Below, in pieces: positions 33,021 to 40,906 of a stretch of 64,000 nt of DNA (positions within the stretch are counted from its first letter, which is position 1; every line of letters begins with the position of its first letter). Both the position numbers and the translations under genes were made by a program. The notes beneath the pieces are model-generated. The model had not been told where the DNA came from. It searched no databases and saw only the letters and a list, made by a program, of their open reading frames with translations. The DNA comes from Planctomyces sp. SH-PL62 (GTDB taxonomy: Bacteria > Planctomycetota > Planctomycetia > Isosphaerales > Isosphaeraceae), in contig NZ_CP011273.1 in NCBI RefSeq assembly GCF_001610895.1, positions 3,658,001 through 3,722,000 of the forward strand, read 5' to 3'.

Positions 33021-34550
33021 TCAACGCCTGAGCGAGTACATCCCCAGGTGCTCCAGCATGTCCTGGAACCAGGGGTTGCTCCAGGGGCCCCGCATCGCGT
33101 AGCCGACCGACATGACCGACACGAACAGGGCCAGCGTCGCCAGCCGGCGGAGCCAGGGACGACCCGCGATCGCGTCGAGGGCGGGGGGGAGCATCAGGAG
33201 CCAGAACGGGATCAGCCAGAACAGCCACCGCAGCCCCTGCGCGGAGCCGCCGTAGTTCCGGGCCTTGGGATTCCAGGTGTAGAAGCCCAGCAGGATGACG
33301 GTCAGCCCCAGCGTCATCCAGGCGACGGCGGTCGTCGGCCGCCGCCTCCACAAGAGTCCGACGAGCCCGAAGACCGCCACCAGGAAGACCGGCGTGCTCG
33401 ACCAGAATCCGTGGTGGCCCAACGTCATGTGGAACAGGTACGTCGCGTACGACTCGCCGACGATCCCGCGCCTCGCGGCCTCCTCGGGGTCGGTCCAGGG
33501 GAGGTTCAGGGCGTCCAGCTCCAGCGGGGTCTTCCAGAGGCTCCCCTCGAACTTGTAGGCGTCGGTGCCGAACTCCTCGTACGCCAGCTTGAACTCCCCG
33601 AACGCGGCGTACTGGCACGCGCCCAGCGCCAGCAGCGGCAGGACGGCGAACGGGGCGAACCAGGCGAGGGACCGTTTCGGGAAGCGGGCCACGAGCGCCA
33701 GGCCGACCAGGCCGAGGAACGCCAGCGCCGGCAGCTCGTTGGTCGCCGTGAAGCCGGCGAGCAGCCCGACCAGCGCGAACCGCCAGCCCTCGACGGCTCC
33801 CTCGTCCCAGATCCGCAAGAACTGGTACAGGGCGAAGAACGCCGCGAAGGCGGCGATCGTGTGGTTGTTGAGCGTCTGCGAGTAGGGGAGCAGGTAGGTG
33901 CCGAACGCCGCCGCGAACAGGCTGTACGACCACGCCCAGTCGGTCCGGGCGCGACGGTCCAGGATGCGGCCGAAGAGGACGAGGAACCCCCAGAACGGGA
34001 CGATGTTCAGGAGGATCAGCACGGGCTTGAAATAGTAGCTGGAGACCGGCCACTTCACCGGCTGATCCGGCGTGGTCAGCACCCCTTTCACGCCGCCGGG
34101 CCGATCCGGGTCGGGGACCTGGCTCCAGCGCGGCTCGCGGGGCTGGAGCGTCACCCGGTCGAGCGGCACGCCGACGATCTGCCGGGCCGGATAGAGCAGC
34201 CCGGCGATCAGCGTCGGCAACAGCGCAGGCTTGCTGGAATAGTAGTGCTTGACCGGCTGGCCGTCCTCGCCGACCTGCGGCGGCGTGGCCGGGATCTCGA
34301 CCTTGTCCTGGGTCTCGGCGTGCCAGGGGCACTCGTCGATGACGTACGTCCCCCGTTCCAGGAGGCTCCAGACGGTGCACCAGCGGGAGATGTCGTTGGC
34401 GCCCATCATGGTCGGCGCGCGGAGGAGCACGCCCAGGGCCAGGGCCGTCGCCGTCGCGATCAGCAACGTCCCGAGGACGCGGCGGGCCTCGCTTCGGGGT
34501 TCCGTGACCGGGGCGTCGAGACGAGGCTCGGGGGCGTCTACGGTGCTCAT
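33021..34550 (-). CDS. GT-C type membrane glycosyltransferase (ArnT/PMT-like)
   Basis: A 509-aa polytopic membrane protein with about 11 hydrophobic segments. An N-terminal helix (VLGTLLIATATALALGVLL) is followed by a first outer loop with APTMMGANDISRWCTVWSL, where the Asp is in the position of the GT-C catalytic acid. Helices such as ILLNIVPFWGFLVLFGRIL, LVGLLAGFTATNELPALAFL and LIPFWLLMLPPALDAIA follow. Such enzymes move a sugar from a polyprenyl-phosphate carrier to an acceptor outside the membrane. It is the last gene of the three-gene run flippase-GT2-GT-C, 6 bp after the GT2 gene, which probably makes its lipid-linked donor. Donor and acceptor are unknown. Confidence 0.75.
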   Translation of the reverse strand: MSTVDAPEPRLDAPVTEPRSEARRVLGTLLIATATALALGVLLRAPTMMGANDISRWCTVWSLLERGTYVIDECPWHAETQDKVEIPATPPQVGEDGQPVKHYYSSKPALLPTLIAGLLYPARQIVGVPLDRVTLQPREPRWSQVPDPDRPGGVKGVLTTPDQPVKWPVSSYYFKPVLILLNIVPFWGFLVLFGRILDRRARTDWAWSYSLFAAAFGTYLLPYSQTLNNHTIAAFAAFFALYQFLRIWDEGAVEGWRFALVGLLAGFTATNELPALAFLGLVGLALVARFPKRSLAWFAPFAVLPLLALGACQYAAFGEFKLAYEEFGTDAYKFEGSLWKTPLELDALNLPWTDPEEAARRGIVGESYATYLFHMTLGHHGFWSSTPVFLVAVFGLVGLLWRRRPTTAVAWMTLGLTVILLGFYTWNPKARNYGGSAQGLRWLFWLIPFWLLMLPPALDAIAGRPWLRRLATLALFVSVMSVGYAMRGPWSNPWFQDMLEHLGMYSLRR

Positions 34551-34556
34551 GGTTCG

Positions 34557-35579
34557 TCACGCTTCCGGTTGCGAGGGGGGCGGGGGCGGGGCGGGCTCGA
34601 CGGCCGCCACGTCGCGGTCCGCTCGGCTCGGTGGGCCGCCGGGACGGAGAGTCTCGGCGATGCTGTAGGTGTCGTCCGCGCGGATCCCGTAGGAGGTCAC
34701 CAGCTCGGCCAGGAATCCCAGGCTGAAGAGCTGCGCCCCCACGAGGAGCATGGCCATCGAGTAGAAGAGCAGGGGGCGGGTGCCGATCGGGTGCGGGTCC
34801 GACTGCCAGAAGTTGGCGAACCAGACGAAGATCAGGTAGAGCATCCCCGCCACGCCCAGGCTGGAGAGCATTAGCCCCGAGGCCCCGATGACGTGCAGCG
34901 GGCGCTGGCGGAACCGCGTCAGGAAGACGACCGTGAACAGGTCCAGCAGCCCCTTGAGGAACCGGGCGAACCCGTACTTCGACTTCCCGAACTCGCGACG
35001 GCGATGGTTGACCTCGATCTCGCCGACCCGGAAGCCCTTGGCGAACGCCAGGGCGGGCACGAACCGGTGCAGCTCGCCGTAGATGCCGACCTCCCGGAGC
35101 ACCTCGGCCCGGTAGGCCTTGAAGCCGCAGTTGTGGTCGTGCAGCCGGCAGCCGGTCAGGTTGCTGACCAGGGCGTTGAAGATCCGGCTGGGGTAGACCT
35201 TGTGCCAGGGGTCGTGCCGGGTCCGCTTCCAGCCGCTGACCACGTCGAGCCCGGCGTCCAGCCGTTCCAGGAACCGGGGGATCTCCGCCGGGTCGTCCTG
35301 GAGGTCGGCGTCGAGCGTGAAGACCCGCTCGCCGCGCGCCGCCTGGAAGCCGGCCGTCAGGGCCGACGCCTTGCCGAAATTGCGGCGGAAGCGGATCCCC
35401 CGGACGCGGGGATCACGAGCTGAGAGTTCGACGACGGCCCGCCACGATCCGTCCCGACTGCCGTCGTCCACGAAGACGAACTCGACCTCGCCCAGCGGCG
35501 CGAAGGCGGCGTCCAGCTCGCGGTCCAGGGCGGGGAGGCTCTCTTCCTCATTGTAGACCGGGACCACGACGCTGATCAT
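34557..35579 (-). CDS. Polyprenyl-phosphate glycosyltransferase, GT2 (DPM1/ArnC/GtrB-like)
   Basis: A 340-aa protein. The GT-A catalytic domain spans about 1-225: VVVPVYNEEESLPALDRELD, FVDDGSRDGS, FRRNFGKASALTAGFQAA and the metal motif TLDADLQDDP, then CGFKAYRAEVL. Two C-terminal membrane helices (about 232-254 and 268-292) anchor it, as in GtrB/ArnC. It makes polyprenyl-phosphate sugar on the cytoplasmic face. The ATG overlaps the flippase stop by 4 nt, and the GT-C gene follows after 6 bp, so one transcript is expected. A Pro-rich tail ends the protein. Confidence 0.93.
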   Translation of the reverse strand: MISVVVPVYNEEESLPALDRELDAAFAPLGEVEFVFVDDGSRDGSWRAVVELSARDPRVRGIRFRRNFGKASALTAGFQAARGERVFTLDADLQDDPAEIPRFLERLDAGLDVVSGWKRTRHDPWHKVYPSRIFNALVSNLTGCRLHDHNCGFKAYRAEVLREVGIYGELHRFVPALAFAKGFRVGEIEVNHRRREFGKSKYGFARFLKGLLDLFTVVFLTRFRQRPLHVIGASGLMLSSLGVAGMLYLIFVWFANFWQSDPHPIGTRPLLFYSMAMLLVGAQLFSLGFLAELVTSYGIRADDTYSIAETLRPGGPPSRADRDVAAVEPAPPPPPSQPEA

Positions 35580-36697
35580 GGCGCTTCCGACATCGGGACG
35601 GACTCCTGCAAGACTTCGGCGGCGGCCACCGCCTCGCCCCTCGGCTTCGCGGGCCTTCCCAGGGGGCCGAGGACCAGGGCGGCAATCACCTCCGCGGCGA
35701 CCCAGACCAGCCGCAAGACCAGCGCGGAGGCCACGGCCAGCCCCGGGCCGAACGCCGGCCCCAGGGCGTACATCAGCACGCTCTCACGCACGCCGAGCCC
35801 TCCCGGCGCCACGGCCACCACGAACCCGGCCACCGTCGCCAGGGCCACGCTCGCCACCGCCACCGGGATCGTGGCCGCCAGGTCCAGGCCCGGCCCACCC
35901 ATCCCCGACAACCCCCGCGCCGCGGCCGCCTGGCTCAGGCCCAGGAACCCCCACGAGACGCCCGTCAGAACCAGGCCCCGCGCCATCAGGCCCCAGGTGA
36001 ACTTCGAGAGCGCGGCCTCCCCCACCCCCGGGACCTTGCGGGTGAACGTCCCCGCGAGTCGGAGGAAGACCGGGGGAGCGACCACGACCAGGAACGCCGC
36101 CGCCAGGCCCCCGGCGATCATCGCGAAGAGGGTGAACGCGCGGATTTCGCGCACGCCTAGCACCTCACGGCCCAGGTCGACGACCGGCGAGTCGCCGCCG
36201 GCCGCGAACAGGACGGCCGCGATCAGGGCTCCCGACGCCATCATCACCAGGGTCTCATAGAACGTCGCCACCGCCGAGGTCGAGGCCCTCGCCCCGTACG
36301 GCGTCGACAGCGCGGCCCGCATCACCACGACCACGGCCTTGCCCGGCACGTACTTGCCCAGGTGGCTGATCAGGTACGCCCGCAGCGCGGGGAAGAGGCC
36401 GATCGGCGTCGGGCTCGCCGCCAGTACGTCGCGGTAGAACGCCCCGCAGAAGGCCAGGCCGACCAGGTACGATAGGCCCGAAAAGGCCAGCCAGCCCGGC
36501 TCCACCCGCAACGAGGCCCCGCCGCGCGCCAGGTCGTCCCACGTCCGGGCGACATGCCGGCCGACCCCCCAGAAGACGAGGACCGCCACCGCCGCCTTGA
36601 GCGCGCGGATCGCCGGCTTGCGCCAGCCGATCGGTCTCGAGGTGGGGGTGGAGTTCACGACTGGGACTCGGGAGGCGGGGTGGGGCGCCGGCCGCAC
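35576..36697 (-). CDS. Lysylphosphatidylglycerol-synthase-TM/UPF0104-type membrane protein (putative flippase)
   Basis: About 373 aa with some eight membrane helices. Motifs of the AglD/LPG-synthase transmembrane family are present: YLISHLGKYVPGKAVVVVMR near residue 110, ATFYETLVMMASGALIAA near 145, and FVVAVAPGGLGVRESVLMYA near 295. Members move or modify lipid-linked substrates, and many sit beside glycosyltransferases. The start codon is uncertain: GTG 36697 gives the longest frame, and a GTG at 36658 (VNSTPTSRPIG) is an alternative. It is the first gene of the operon with GT2 and GT-C. The role as a flippase is inferred from family and context. Confidence 0.8.
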   Translation of the reverse strand: MRPAPHPASRVPVVNSTPTSRPIGWRKPAIRALKAAVAVLVFWGVGRHVARTWDDLARGGASLRVEPGWLAFSGLSYLVGLAFCGAFYRDVLAASPTPIGLFPALRAYLISHLGKYVPGKAVVVVMRAALSTPYGARASTSAVATFYETLVMMASGALIAAVLFAAGGDSPVVDLGREVLGVREIRAFTLFAMIAGGLAAAFLVVVAPPVFLRLAGTFTRKVPGVGEAALSKFTWGLMARGLVLTGVSWGFLGLSQAAAARGLSGMGGPGLDLAATIPVAVASVALATVAGFVVAVAPGGLGVRESVLMYALGPAFGPGLAVASALVLRLVWVAAEVIAALVLGPLGRPAKPRGEAVAAAEVLQESVPMSEAP

Positions 36698-36872: not shown

Positions 36873-37442
36873 ATGCATTCCTGGCTGTCGCGTTACATCG
36901 AGGCCCAGCACCGGGCCCTGGATTCGATCCCCCTGGAGGCCGTCGAACGCGTCGTCGCCACGGTGCGCCGGGCCTGGGAGGAGGATCGCCAGATCTTCGT
37001 CGTCGGCAACGGCGGCAACGCCGCCAGCGCCTCGCACTTCGCGACCGACCTGGGCAAGGGCGCCAGCGACGCCTTGGGCCGCCGGTTCCGGGTGATCACC
37101 CTGGCCGACAACGTCGCCTGGCTTACGGCGATCGGCAACGACTACCGCTTCGAGGACGTCTTCCTCCGCCCGCTGGAGAATTACGCCCGGCCCGGCGACG
37201 TCTTGATCGCCAGCAGCGTCAGCGGTAATTCGCCGAACCTCGTCCGCGCGATGGAATGGGCCCGCGACATGGACCTGCGGACCATCGCCTTCGTCGGCGC
37301 CAAGAAGGGCGGGCTCGCCGCGCTCGCCGAGCAGACCATCGTCGTGGCCGACACCCACTACGGCCGCGTCGAGGACGTGCAGATGACCCTCTACCACCTG
37401 ATCTGCTACGCGTTCATGGAAACGGAAAAGGAGACGGCGTGA
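36873..37442 (+). CDS. SIS-domain sugar-phosphate isomerase (GmhA-like)
   Basis: A 189-aa protein, the usual GmhA length. The SIS core has VVGNGGNAASASHFATDLGK, DVLIASSVSGNSPNLVRAME and DVQMTLYHLICYAFME. The His in SASHF and the Gln and His in VQMTLYH match metal/active-site positions of sedoheptulose-7-phosphate isomerase; the usual Glu after the first His is Asp (ATDL). The reaction is probably ketose- to aldose-phosphate conversion, but the substrate need not be sedoheptulose. The ATG follows AAGGGAGCGAG. Its stop overlaps the next start (GTGA). It is the first gene of a five-gene coupled operon. Confidence 0.88.
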   Translation: MHSWLSRYIEAQHRALDSIPLEAVERVVATVRRAWEEDRQIFVVGNGGNAASASHFATDLGKGASDALGRRFRVITLADNVAWLTAIGNDYRFEDVFLRPLENYARPGDVLIASSVSGNSPNLVRAMEWARDMDLRTIAFVGAKKGGLAALAEQTIVVADTHYGRVEDVQMTLYHLICYAFMETEKETA

Positions 37443-38278
37443 CGCCCGCGAGCCCGACCTTCGAAGGTGAAGTCGTCCTGCTGCCGACGTTCGCCCCCCG
37501 ACCGGCGATCAGCCGCGTCCTGTTCGACTTCGACGGCACGCTCTCCCTGGTCCGCCAGGGCTGGCCCGACGTCATGGTCCCCATGTTCGTCGAGATGCTC
37601 CCCGCGCTCGACGGCGAGTCCGACGAGGACCGCCGCCGGATGGCGTTCGAGGACATCATGCACCTCAACGGCAAGCAGACCATCTACCAGATGATCCGGC
37701 TCGCCGAGCGGATCCGCGAGCGCGGCGGCCATCCCCACGACCCCCTCTGGTACAAGCACGAATACCTCCGACGCCTCGACGACCGGATCTCCCACCGGCT
37801 CGAAGGGCTCAAGGACGGTTCGGTCCGGCCCGACGAACTCCTCGTCCACGGCTCCCGGGAACTGCTCGACGACCTGGCCCGCCGCGGACTGACCCTCTAC
37901 CTCGCCAGCGGCACCGACGAGCCGTTCGTGAGGCGCGAGGCCGAGCTCCTCGACGTCGCCCGCTACTTCGGCCCCCACATCTACGGCGCCCAGGACGACT
38001 ACAAGTCCTTCTCGAAGAAGATGGTCATCGAGCGGATCCTCCGCGAGAACGCGATCCGGGGCGAGGAGCTGCTCGCCTTCGGCGACGGCTACGTCGAGAT
38101 CGAGAACACCAAGGAGGCCGGCGGCCTGGCCGTGGCCGTCGCCAGCGACGAGGCCGACAACGGCTCGGGCCGCATGGACGCCTGGAAGCGCGAACGGCTC
38201 ACCGGCGTCGGCGCCGACGTCGTCATCCCCGACTACCGCGACGCGAAGCCCCTCCTGGAGCTGATCCTGGGATCATGA
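37439..38278 (+). CDS. HAD-superfamily hydrolase (phosphoglycolate-phosphatase-like)
   Basis: A 279-aa protein. HAD motif I is VLFDFDGTLS (both Asp present), motif II is LYLASGTDEPF, motif III is the Lys in YKSFSKKMVIERIL, and motif IV is LLAFGDGYVEIENTKEAGG. The helical cap lies between motifs I and II. It removes phosphate from a sugar phosphate or related compound. It could fill the GmhB step between two kinase/isomerase enzymes, though it is not of the small GmhB subfamily. It starts at GTG 37439, overlapping the isomerase stop by 4 nt, and overlaps the next gene by 4 nt (ATGA). Confidence 0.9.
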   Translation: MTPASPTFEGEVVLLPTFAPRPAISRVLFDFDGTLSLVRQGWPDVMVPMFVEMLPALDGESDEDRRRMAFEDIMHLNGKQTIYQMIRLAERIRERGGHPHDPLWYKHEYLRRLDDRISHRLEGLKDGSVRPDELLVHGSRELLDDLARRGLTLYLASGTDEPFVRREAELLDVARYFGPHIYGAQDDYKSFSKKMVIERILRENAIRGEELLAFGDGYVEIENTKEAGGLAVAVASDEADNGSGRMDAWKRERLTGVGADVVIPDYRDAKPLLELILGS

Positions 38279-39381
38279 ACACCCGACCGCTCGACCTGGA
38301 ACGGCTCCGCGTCCACCCGCTCGAAAGCCGCCGAAGCCTGACGACCGTCGAAGACGTCCTGATCGACCCCGACTCGACGCCGAAGCCGCTCGCGGCCCCG
38401 GTCGCCCTCGAGGTCGCCGAGTGCGCCCGCCGCATCCGCCGCGCCCGCGAGCTGGGGGGCGGGGTGATGCTGATCTACGGCGCGCACCTCCTGCGCAACG
38501 GCTCCGCGTCGATCCTCGGCCGGATGATGGAGAAGGAGTGGATCACCCACCTGGCGACCAACGGCGCCGGTACGATCCACGACTGGGAATACGCCTGGCT
38601 CGGCCGCTCCACCGAGAGCGTCCGCGAGAACGTCCCCCTGGGCGCGTTCGGCTCCTGGGACGAGACCGGCCGCAACATCCACCTGGCCCTCCTCGCCGCC
38701 GGCCTCCGGGGCGAGGGCTACGGCGTGGGCCTCGGCCGGCTCATCGCCGAGGACGGCCTCGAACTCCCCCCGGCCGGCGAGCTGGAGAAGTCCCTCCGCG
38801 ACGAGCCCGCCCATCCCCTCGCCCCCGCCCGCGCCGACGCCCTCCGGGCGATCCGCGCGGGCGGGCTCCCCGCCGGCCGGATCGCCGTCGAACACCGCTG
38901 GAAGCACGCCTCGATCCTGGCGCAGGCCTTCCAGCACCAGATCCCGATGACCGTCCACCCCGGGATCGGCTACGACATCATCGCCAACCACCCCATGTTC
39001 AACGGGGCCGCGATCGGCCGCGCCGCGGAGCACGATTTCCGGCTCTTCGGCGGGTCGGTCGAGACGCTCGACCACGGCGTCGTCCTCTCGGTCGGCTCGG
39101 CCATCATGGGGCCGCAGGTCTTCGAGAAAAGCCTGAGCTGCGTCAACAACCTCCGGCTCCAGGACGGCCGGCCGATCGTGGCCGACCACTCGATCTACGT
39201 CGTCGACATCCAGGACGGCGGCGGCTGGGACTGGACGACGGGCGAGCCCCCTAAGTCGAACCCGGCGTATTACCTGCGGTTCTGCAAGAGCTACGCCCGC
39301 ATGGGGGGCGAGATGCGGTATCTCCAGTGCGACAACGCCGCCTTCATCCACAACCTCTATCAGCAGGTCCGCGCCTCATGA
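38275..39381 (+). CDS. Conserved-looking cytoplasmic protein of unknown function in the sugar operon
   Basis: A 368-aa soluble protein that I cannot assign. Visible features are VMLIYGAHLLRNGSASILGR, ITHLATNGAGTIHDWEYAWL, a Gly-rich GEGYGVGLGRLIAED, VEHRWKHASILAQAFQHQIP, TVHPGIGYDIIANHPMFNGA, VVLSVGSAIMGPQVFEKSL and a C-terminal MGGEMRYLQCDNAAF. The alternating strands with Gly-rich turns suggest a Rossmann-like enzyme. A distant relation to deoxyhypusine synthase-like proteins is possible but unproven. It overlaps by 4 nt with both the HAD gene before and the kinase gene after, so its product should act with theirs. No membrane segments or signal peptide. Confidence 0.8.
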   Translation: MNTRPLDLERLRVHPLESRRSLTTVEDVLIDPDSTPKPLAAPVALEVAECARRIRRARELGGGVMLIYGAHLLRNGSASILGRMMEKEWITHLATNGAGTIHDWEYAWLGRSTESVRENVPLGAFGSWDETGRNIHLALLAAGLRGEGYGVGLGRLIAEDGLELPPAGELEKSLRDEPAHPLAPARADALRAIRAGGLPAGRIAVEHRWKHASILAQAFQHQIPMTVHPGIGYDIIANHPMFNGAAIGRAAEHDFRLFGGSVETLDHGVVLSVGSAIMGPQVFEKSLSCVNNLRLQDGRPIVADHSIYVVDIQDGGGWDWTTGEPPKSNPAYYLRFCKSYARMGGEMRYLQCDNAAFIHNLYQQVRAS

Positions 39382-40409
39382 CTCCGGAGCGCTTCCGAGA
39401 CGTCGTCTCTCTATATCAGGGGCTCCGCATCGCCGTCGTCGGCGATTTCTGCCTCGATCGTTATCTCGAGATCGACCCCGACCGCGCCGAGGTTTCCATC
39501 GAGACGGGCCTGCCGGTCTACAACGTCGTCAACGTCCGGGCCCAGCCGGGGGGGGCCGGGACGGTCCTCAACAACCTGGCCGCCCTGGGCGTGGGCCGCA
39601 TCGAGGTGGTCGGGTTTCGCGGGGCCGACGGCGAGGGCTACGAACTCCAGCGCGAGCTCGAATTGTATCCCAGCGTTTCGACCGAGCACCTGCTCACGGC
39701 CCACGACCGTCGGACGTTCACCTACTGCAAGCCCCTGGTCGTCCGCCCCGGCGCGATCCCCGTCGAGCTGAACCGCCTGGACTCCAAGAACTGGACCCCC
39801 ACGCCGAAGCTGCTGGAGCTTCGCCTGGTCGAGAGCCTGCGGGCGGTCGCCGCGCGGTGCCACGCGATCGTCGTGCTGGAGCAGGTCGACGCCGCCGAGA
39901 CCGGCGTGGTGACGCGTGGACTCCTGGAGGCGATCGACGCCCTGACCGACGAACATCCCCGGCTCCTGTTCCTGGCCGACTCCCGCCGGGGCCTGCGCGA
40001 CTGGCCCGGAGTGGGCCTGAAGATGAACGCGGCCGAGCTGGCGGCGATGCTCGACCGCCCGAGCGTCGAGACGCCCGACGACGCCAAACGCGCCGCGGGC
40101 GAACTGGCGAGGGGCTCGGGCCGACCCGTGTTCGTCACGCTGGCCGAGCATGGGATCGTCGCGGCCGGGCCCGAAGGGGAGGTCGTCCACGTCCCCGCCT
40201 TGCCCGTCCGCGGGCCGATCGACGTCGTCGGCGCGGGGGACTCGGTCACGGCCAACCTGACCGCGGCGCTGGCGGCCGGGGCGTCGCTCCGCGAGGCCGT
40301 CGAACTGGCGGTCGTCGCCTCGTCGGTCGTCGTCCATCAGGTCGGCACGACGGGCGTCGCGACGGTCGACGATCTCGCCTCGCTGCTGGATCGGATCCCC
40401 GCGGCATGA
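39378..40409 (+). CDS. PfkB-family sugar kinase, HldA/RfaE1-like
   Basis: A 343-aa kinase of the ribokinase family. It opens with LRIAVVGDFCLDRYLEIDPD and has GLPVYNVVNVRAQPGGAGTV with NNLAALG, the usual substrate-binding region of RfaE1 proteins. The catalytic signature is PIDVVGAGDSVTANLTAAL with Asp as base. HldA phosphorylates heptose 7-phosphate at C1, but this protein has no fused nucleotidyltransferase domain as in HldE, and none is adjacent. The substrate is therefore uncertain. ATG 39378 overlaps the previous stop (ATGA), and its own stop overlaps the release-factor-like start. Confidence 0.9.
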   Translation: MTPERFRDVVSLYQGLRIAVVGDFCLDRYLEIDPDRAEVSIETGLPVYNVVNVRAQPGGAGTVLNNLAALGVGRIEVVGFRGADGEGYELQRELELYPSVSTEHLLTAHDRRTFTYCKPLVVRPGAIPVELNRLDSKNWTPTPKLLELRLVESLRAVAARCHAIVVLEQVDAAETGVVTRGLLEAIDALTDEHPRLLFLADSRRGLRDWPGVGLKMNAAELAAMLDRPSVETPDDAKRAAGELARGSGRPVFVTLAEHGIVAAGPEGEVVHVPALPVRGPIDVVGAGDSVTANLTAALAAGASLREAVELAVVASSVVVHQVGTTGVATVDDLASLLDRIPAA

Positions 40410-40906
40410 GCGGCCATCCCGCCGCGATGGACCCCGACCGGCTCGCCGCCGAGTGCGACTTCAAGACGACCCGGCGGTCGGGTCCCGGCGGCCAGAACCG
40501 CAACAAGGTGGAGACGGCCGTCATCCTCACCCACCGGCCGACCGGCATCGCCGCCGAGGCCGCCGAGCGCCGGACCCAGGGCGAGAACCGCCGCCAAGCC
40601 CTCTTCCGACTCCGCCTCAGGCTGGCCCTCGAAATCCGAACTCCCGCCGAGCCCGCCCCCAGCCCACTCTGGGCGTCCCGCCTGCGCGGAGGCCGGATCG
40701 TCGTCAGCCCCGAGCACGACGACTTCCCGGCGCTCCTGGCCGAAGCCCTCGACGTCCTGGCGAGCCTCGACGACGACGTCAAAGCCGCCGCGACGGCCCT
40801 CGGCTGCTCCGCGACCCAGCTGGTCAAGCTGCTTGCCGCCGAGCCCCGCGCCCTGACGCAAATCAACGCCCGGCGCACCTCTCGGGGCCTGCATCCCCTC
40901 CGCTGA
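40406..40906 (+). CDS. Class I release-factor-like protein with GGQ motif (ArfB/PrfH-like)
   Basis: A 166-aa protein. The peptidyl-tRNA hydrolysis domain spans about 15-75: CDFKTTRRSGPGGQNRNKVE, then AVILTHRPTGIAAEAAERRT, then ENRRQALFRLRLRL. It lacks the codon-recognition domain of RF1/RF2, so it would act on stalled ribosomes or other esters if active. The C-terminal half is not the basic ArfB tail but a helical domain (LLAEALDVLASLDDDVKAAA, CSATQLVKLLAAEP). It is the last gene of the five-gene operon, coupled by ATGA to the kinase. Why it sits there is not known. Confidence 0.85.
   Translation: MSGHPAAMDPDRLAAECDFKTTRRSGPGGQNRNKVETAVILTHRPTGIAAEAAERRTQGENRRQALFRLRLRLALEIRTPAEPAPSPLWASRLRGGRIVVSPEHDDFPALLAEALDVLASLDDDVKAAATALGCSATQLVKLLAAEPRALTQINARRTSRGLHPLR

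Follow-up and report, generated by a model that had tools for sequence, protein, structure and literature searches.

The stretch of DNA analysed here (the window) comprises 64,000 nucleotides of Planctomyces sp. SH-PL62 (NZ_CP011273.1, positions 3,658,001 to 3,722,000). At window positions 36873-40906 it carries five plus-strand genes, which encode a GmhA-like SIS isomerase, a HAD-family phosphatase, a protein of the GSU2086 family (hereafter protein 3), an HldA-like PfkB kinase and an RF-1/GGQ domain protein (Table 1). The original prediction had described the five open reading frames as joined by 4-nt overlaps at all four junctions; the coordinates and junction sequences agree with this (ATGA at three junctions, GTGA at one), and the enzyme classes it proposed were borne out by NCBIfam and Pfam matches. 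Four such overlaps need not be remarkable for a GC-rich operon; the feature that exceeds chance is the conserved gene order. The GGQ gene, which had been counted as a member of the system, does not belong to it: judged from its overlap it is probably on the same transcript, and a GGQ gene lies within 3 kb at just 6 of 96 sampled loci that carry a long-type relative of protein 3 and have flanks of 1.3 kb or more on each side. The conserved module is therefore the first four genes, with the GGQ gene as a neighbour at this locus. The strongest clue to the function of this module, absent from the original prediction, is a mutual exclusion between the sister clade of protein 3 and the heptose epimerase HldD.

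Protein 3 had been called unknown, and no function has in fact been assigned to it, although a family name exists: it matches NF052581 ("GSU2086 family", no function) over residues 5-363 with 325.3 bits against a cut-off of 250, and is thus a member. An AlphaFold2 model of protein 3 (predicted local distance difference test, pLDDT, 95.4) has the deoxyhypusine synthase/ornithine cyclodeaminase fold, aligning with the ornithine cyclodeaminase domain of AgrE (Z 20.1, 221 residues, 3.3 A), with the LOR/SDH protein 3c2q (Z 18.9), and with deoxyhypusine synthases (Z 15.9-18.1, 233-270 residues aligned, 9-14% identity among the rows listed). The GSU2086-family profile likewise matches the ornithine cyclodeaminase region of AgrE/ArgZ (E 6.4e-6 and 1.2e-5), and an HDxE stretch is common to protein 3 and the AgrE/ArgZ or 3c2q-type proteins. 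AgrE, LOR/SDH proteins and deoxyhypusine synthase are NAD+ enzymes in which the substrate is oxidised and then re-reduced; from the modelled fold and the HDxE stretch, protein 3 may bind NAD+ as well. Residues conserved in 95% or more of the members of each clade of the family include H71, H102, D103, E105, E114, H228, D234, D254, K285 and D311 (numbered on full-length protein 3, in agreement with the invariant columns of a separate alignment). A search with TIGR02197 (HldD) gave no match to protein 3 at E<=0.1, and a viral structure library gave none at E<=0.001. A nickel-pincer function, considered because of the NCBIfam name of TIGR00300, received no support from the searches made and was set aside.

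Matches to the family at E<=0.001 occur in 189 of 294 Planctomycetota genomes, and in 141 they lie above the curated cut-off. In a tree of 243 members, a single branch (support 0.956) separates two genomic contexts without error: on one side are all 101 members in a lipopolysaccharide (LPS) context (lpxK upstream, or hldE immediately downstream), on the other all 72 that neighbour a kinase or HAD gene, the context labels resting on hand-set score and distance limits. The remaining 70 members, with neither context, are divided between the LPS side (18) and the kinase/HAD side (52). Protein 3 of the window sits in the kinase/HAD clade, whose members are for the most part longer (medians of 359 vs 299 aa matched). 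Typical LPS-context orders are lpxK, family member, small gene, hldE-, gmhA- and gmhB-type genes (genome G138), and lpxK, family member, heptosyltransferase II-type gene (G318). At another locus (L111, 9298-9717, minus strand) the GSU2086-family gene and hldE are separated by a small gene with a sub-threshold CxxCxxCC match. Among the matches listed, 73 of 119 short-type members are in genomes with an HldC-domain match, and 51 of the 119 are followed by that domain on the same strand at a distance of 1.0-2.9 kb; 8 of 22 long-type members are in such genomes, and none of the 22 has an HldC domain nearby. PMC5585712 lists GSU2085 (hldE), GSU2086 and GSU2087 (gmhA) of Geobacter, all three with electrode-growth defects. 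GSU2086 itself presumably belongs to the LPS clade.

HldD is the ADP-heptose 6-epimerase. Among the 294 Planctomycetota genomes, the phylum to which this comparison was confined, HldD (TIGR02197 above cut-off) is present in 75, and it rarely accompanies the LPS clade: both occur in 5 genomes, the clade alone in 112, HldD alone in 70 and neither in 107 (p 4e-13), so that HldD is found in 5/117 clade-bearing genomes vs 70/177 others. This table used the tree clades, omitted ten HldD hits of 226-269 bits and one partial protein (G087), and assigned four other partial proteins (G019, G085, G163, G179) to the LPS clade by their neighbours rather than by the tree. When the count was restricted to the 247 genomes having a strong match to the HldC/HldE domain, and the ten HldD hits just under the cut-off were added, the corresponding numbers were 4, 109, 79 and 55 (p 8e-23); the listed TIGR02197 scores show a gap between HldD-like proteins (down to 226 bits) and other SDR proteins (from 155 bits). 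The sampled genomes are related, and these p-values overstate their independence; the row and genome lists behind the counts were transcribed by hand from search output. HldD was also shuffled within families: 6 overlaps were observed against a mean of 12.6, and none of 20,000 permutations was as low. The permutation counted the ten weaker HldD hits and took short-length members (G087 included), predating the shift by the tree of some genomes to the clade of the window.

The same pattern is seen at the level of the gene slot. In one family (f33), four genomes have a GSU2086-family member without HldD and six have HldD without a family member, and in the slot lpxK - LpxL-type acyltransferase - X - hldE, X is the GSU2086-family gene at one locus (L267) and HldD at another (L297); the acyltransferase was annotated at these two loci only, the other f33 loci having been viewed through models of lpxK, X and hldE. 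Among the matches listed, 11 of 47 HldD genes in genomes with an HldC-domain match lie upstream of HldC, 8 of them at 1066-1093 nt, which falls inside the range (1041-1157 nt) of 48 of the 51 distances from short-type members to HldC. A prediction for the window's own taxonomic family, written before the search, was followed by detection of HldD in 12 of the 13 genomes named, G310 being without it; of three genomes set aside as incomplete, G301 and G315 have HldD and G305 does not. In this family, with the short status of its 37 genomes read from segment patterns and not from a tree, HldD is present in 1 of 21 clade-bearing genomes (G324) vs 14 of 16 others (p 2.7e-7), or in 1 of 15 vs 12 of 13 when the count is limited to genomes with a completeness of 90% or more (28 of 37).

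The kinase/HAD clade taken by itself shows no exclusion with HldD in the phylum sample (4/29 with HldD, p 0.18). It is enriched in HldE genomes that lack both HldD and the LPS clade (17/55 vs 8/192, p 2.5e-7), where it might serve the same step, or the enrichment might reflect shared ancestry. Separately, 38 of the 247 Planctomycetota genomes counted above lack both HldD and any listed family member; these may have a different substitute for HldD or may need none.

Conservation of the gene set points to a unit that extends beyond the strain, as the original prediction had proposed should be sought. All five genes are retained in 5/5 same-genus relatives compared, and the nearest named record found, Paludisphaera soli, has a protein 3 that is 92% identical. 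Beyond the genus the recurring unit is HAD, protein 3 and kinase, at times with SIS. In the 96-locus sample, a HAD gene lies on the same strand within 1.5 kb of the long-type protein 3 gene at 47 loci, a kinase gene at 48 and both at 39; SIS, the least constant of the four, is within 3 kb at 15. Among named loci (the best 80 of 592), the three are grouped in Planctomycetota, Verrucomicrobiota, Lentisphaerae, Latescibacterota and Gemmatimonadota, mostly in metagenome bins, and the order is thus not limited to one strain. At five loci kinase and HAD are fused in a single open frame of 636-668 aa adjoining protein 3, which links the kinase and HAD steps.

Likeness of the operon to the heptose route, a further claim of the original prediction, held for the isomerase and the kinase, whose nearest relatives are heptose enzymes. 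The kinase scores 142 bits against TIGR02198 (HldA), under the cut-off of 345 and yet the best of 23 models listed, and its best solved relative is a D-beta-D-heptose 7-phosphate kinase. The SIS protein scores 108.5 bits against TIGR00441 (GmhA), under the cut-off of 209.45, and its best solved relatives are phosphoheptose isomerases. The zinc ligands of GmhA are given as H61, E65, Q175 and H183 in PMC5387315; in an alignment with 5i01 the SIS protein keeps both histidines (H55 and H175), E65 being replaced by D59 and Q175 by E167, and a supposed loss of a catalytic histidine was accordingly dropped. The same aspartate and glutamate replacements are present in most operon SIS proteins and in the genome's other SIS protein. 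The AlphaFold2 model of the HAD protein (pLDDT 94.7) resembles HAD phosphatases and beta-phosphoglucomutases (Z up to 21.7) of the capped kind, and the identity of this protein as GmhB was rejected, no GmhB model being among nine listed at E<=0.1. GmhB is also missing from the fold matches listed for the HAD model, which by itself excludes nothing.

A nucleotidyltransferase had been reported missing. None with an HldC domain was found by NCBIfam search among the five operon proteins, but the search elsewhere in the 6.78-Mb genome that had been suggested did recover an HldE-type protein on contig C2, which rules out a true absence. Its gene, on this 98-kb contig (L103, 5560-11060), adjoins an ABC-2 exporter, a Wzt-like ATPase and a bacterial sugar transferase, surroundings that look like a polysaccharide region. 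The genome further encodes HldD (344.5 bits), a GmhB-like match (126.6 bits, under the cut-off of 178) and a second SIS protein (97.7 bits); because both SIS proteins are under the GmhA cut-off, either could be the isomerase of the ADP-heptose route. It is likely that the genome carries an ordinary ADP-heptose route, and that the operon is a parallel set.

The four genes are best read as encoding a pathway that follows the scheme of ADP-heptose synthesis but uses enzyme subfamilies of its own; the case for a heptose scheme comes from the isomerase, the kinase and the sister clade of protein 3. The SIS protein would interconvert a ketose-phosphate and an aldose-phosphate, the HldA-like kinase would add a second phosphate, at C1 by analogy, and the HAD protein would remove the first. 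Protein 3, using NAD+, would oxidise a sugar carbon and re-reduce it with inverted configuration, as an epimerase, and any nucleotide activation would be supplied in trans by HldE from elsewhere in the genome; the heptose-type substrate and the order of the steps are likewise conjectural. In LPS heptose synthesis the sister clade seems to stand in for HldD, and what is proposed for protein 3 is that it works like HldD, not that it is one. We give roughly an even chance to this reading, in which protein 3 is an epimerase-type enzyme that depends on NAD+ and serves a heptose-like pathway running in parallel. A bolder version, to which we give somewhat less credence, holds that heptose 6-epimerases are of two structurally unrelated kinds, the GSU2086 family being the second and replacing HldD for LPS in about 40% of sampled Planctomycetota (117/294), and that the window operon is a paralogous, undescribed pathway in which an enzyme of the same fold epimerises the phosphate of a heptose (or mannose-like sugar), either to build a non-LPS glycan or to salvage heptose from other bacteria. 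If true, this would give a function to a widespread uncharacterised family, explain how many HldE bacteria do without HldD, and widen the chemistry of a fold known from amine reactions to include the epimerisation of sugars. Innate immunity also senses ADP-heptose as a microbial signal, so that an enzyme setting the stereochemistry of ADP-heptose would matter beyond planctomycetes.

Several observations weigh against these proposals. The exclusion is evidence of functional overlap and not of a reaction, and it is imperfect, HldD co-occurring with the LPS clade in five genomes of the phylum sample in addition to G324. Since the window genome has both HldD and protein 3, the clade of the window need not share the substrate of its sister, and the operon is without a nucleotidyltransferase of its own. 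HAD and kinase are both absent nearby, by phmmer, at 40 of the 96 long-type loci, an upper bound because model searches later revealed, for example, an opposite-strand kinase-HAD pair (L041). Literature searches found no activity for any family member and no paper joining deoxyhypusine synthase-like proteins with heptose; nothing on the family appeared in listings on heptose use and Geobacter LPS, or, by title and beginning of abstract, among the matches listed for HldD and non-orthologous replacement. Finally, given the 38 HldE genomes (of 247) in which HldD and listed family members are both missing, HldD may be dispensable or otherwise replaced. Such genomes, and the relatedness of the sample, would also be in keeping with an exclusion that reflected shared ancestry and operon history, the two proteins performing different steps, with the clade making or modifying another heptose isomer, for instance; we regard this as improbable, as the exclusion persists within families, in the same slot, and in a prediction made beforehand.

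Greater weight, though still well short of favour, is due to a catabolic or salvage route, in which a ROK-type kinase would phosphorylate an imported manno-configured sugar (mannose, or heptose from other bacteria) and SIS, kinase, HAD and protein 3 would convert it to a central sugar phosphate. Two Bacteroidota loci fit sugar use over LPS: a Mariniphaga run (L194, 432-13679) encodes a ROK kinase, a GmhA-like SIS protein, GH38, GH92, a kinase-HAD fusion and a GSU2086-family protein, together with a 3-keto-disaccharide hydrolase, a GlcNAc 2-epimerase family protein and a sodium symporter, and at L196 the module is accompanied by GH92, a GlcNAc 2-epimerase family protein and a symporter. Five loci, two of which had supplied the ROK model, have ROK and SIS together. 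The window locus has no ROK match, however, and no hydrolase or symporter is among the annotated genes beside the operon, while the kinase-HAD fusion better suits an anabolic HldA/GmhB logic. The nearest solved folds belong to enzymes that act on amines, and protein 3 could have retained such chemistry, modifying an aminosugar or polyamine; its score against TIGR00300 (ornithine cyclodeaminase), 18.8 bits, is far under the cut-off of 410.8, and its sugar-phosphate neighbours recur, making this quite implausible. We give marginally less weight still to an NAD+-dependent cyclase, or other internal-redox enzyme without epimerase activity, acting on sedoheptulose 7-phosphate or a related sugar: the redox-neutral NAD+ logic would be the same and the GmhA-like and HldA-like partners suit it, yet it leaves unexplained the place of the sister clade in the HldD slot.

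Adjoining the operon, a divergent cassette on the minus strand encodes two putative glycosyltransferases and a further protein (Table 1), and might use a sugar supplied by the operon.

Table 1. Genes of the operon and of the adjoining divergent cassette (window coordinates).
Feature	Position	Strand	Evidence
SIS isomerase, GmhA-like, 189 aa	36873..37442	+	TIGR00441, 108.5 bits
HAD-family phosphatase, 279 aa	37439..38278	+	GTG start; PF00702, 47.8 bits, above cut-off
Protein 3, GSU2086 family, 368 aa, proposed NAD+-dependent epimerase-type enzyme	38275..39381	+	NF052581, 325.3 bits
PfkB kinase, HldA-like, 343 aa	39378..40409	+	TIGR02198, 142 bits
RF-1/GGQ domain protein, 166 aa	40406..40906	+	PF00472, 59.1 bits
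Putative membrane glycosyltransferase	within cassette 33021-36697	-	weak, 45 bits vs cut-off 200
ArnC-like polyprenyl-phosphate glycosyltransferase	within cassette 33021-36697	-	186 bits vs cut-off 529
373-aa protein	within cassette 33021-36697	-	without NCBIfam match

When set against known systems, the operon most resembles the ADP-L-glycero-D-manno-heptose pathway (GmhA, HldE, GmhB, HldD), in that it joins an isomerase, an HldA-type kinase and a phosphatase, and in that the sister clade of protein 3 occupies the HldD slot. It differs from that pathway in that the isomerase and kinase are under the curated cut-offs, the phosphatase has no GmhB match, no nucleotidyltransferase is included, and protein 3 has the deoxyhypusine synthase/ornithine cyclodeaminase fold with no TIGR02197 match. 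Protein 3 shares its fold (Z 19-20) and the HDxE stretch with the ornithine cyclodeaminase domain of AgrE/ArgZ and the 3c2q-type LOR/SDH proteins (TIGR00300, PF21570), but is far under the cut-off of that family and lies in a sugar-phosphate gene context; with deoxyhypusine synthase it shares the overall fold (Z about 16-18), at 9-14% identity in the rows listed and in a different gene context. By curated cut-off it is a member of the GSU2086 family (NF052581), whose Geobacter representative is listed with hldE and gmhA; within the family, the clade of the window is mostly longer and is linked to kinase and HAD genes instead of hldE.

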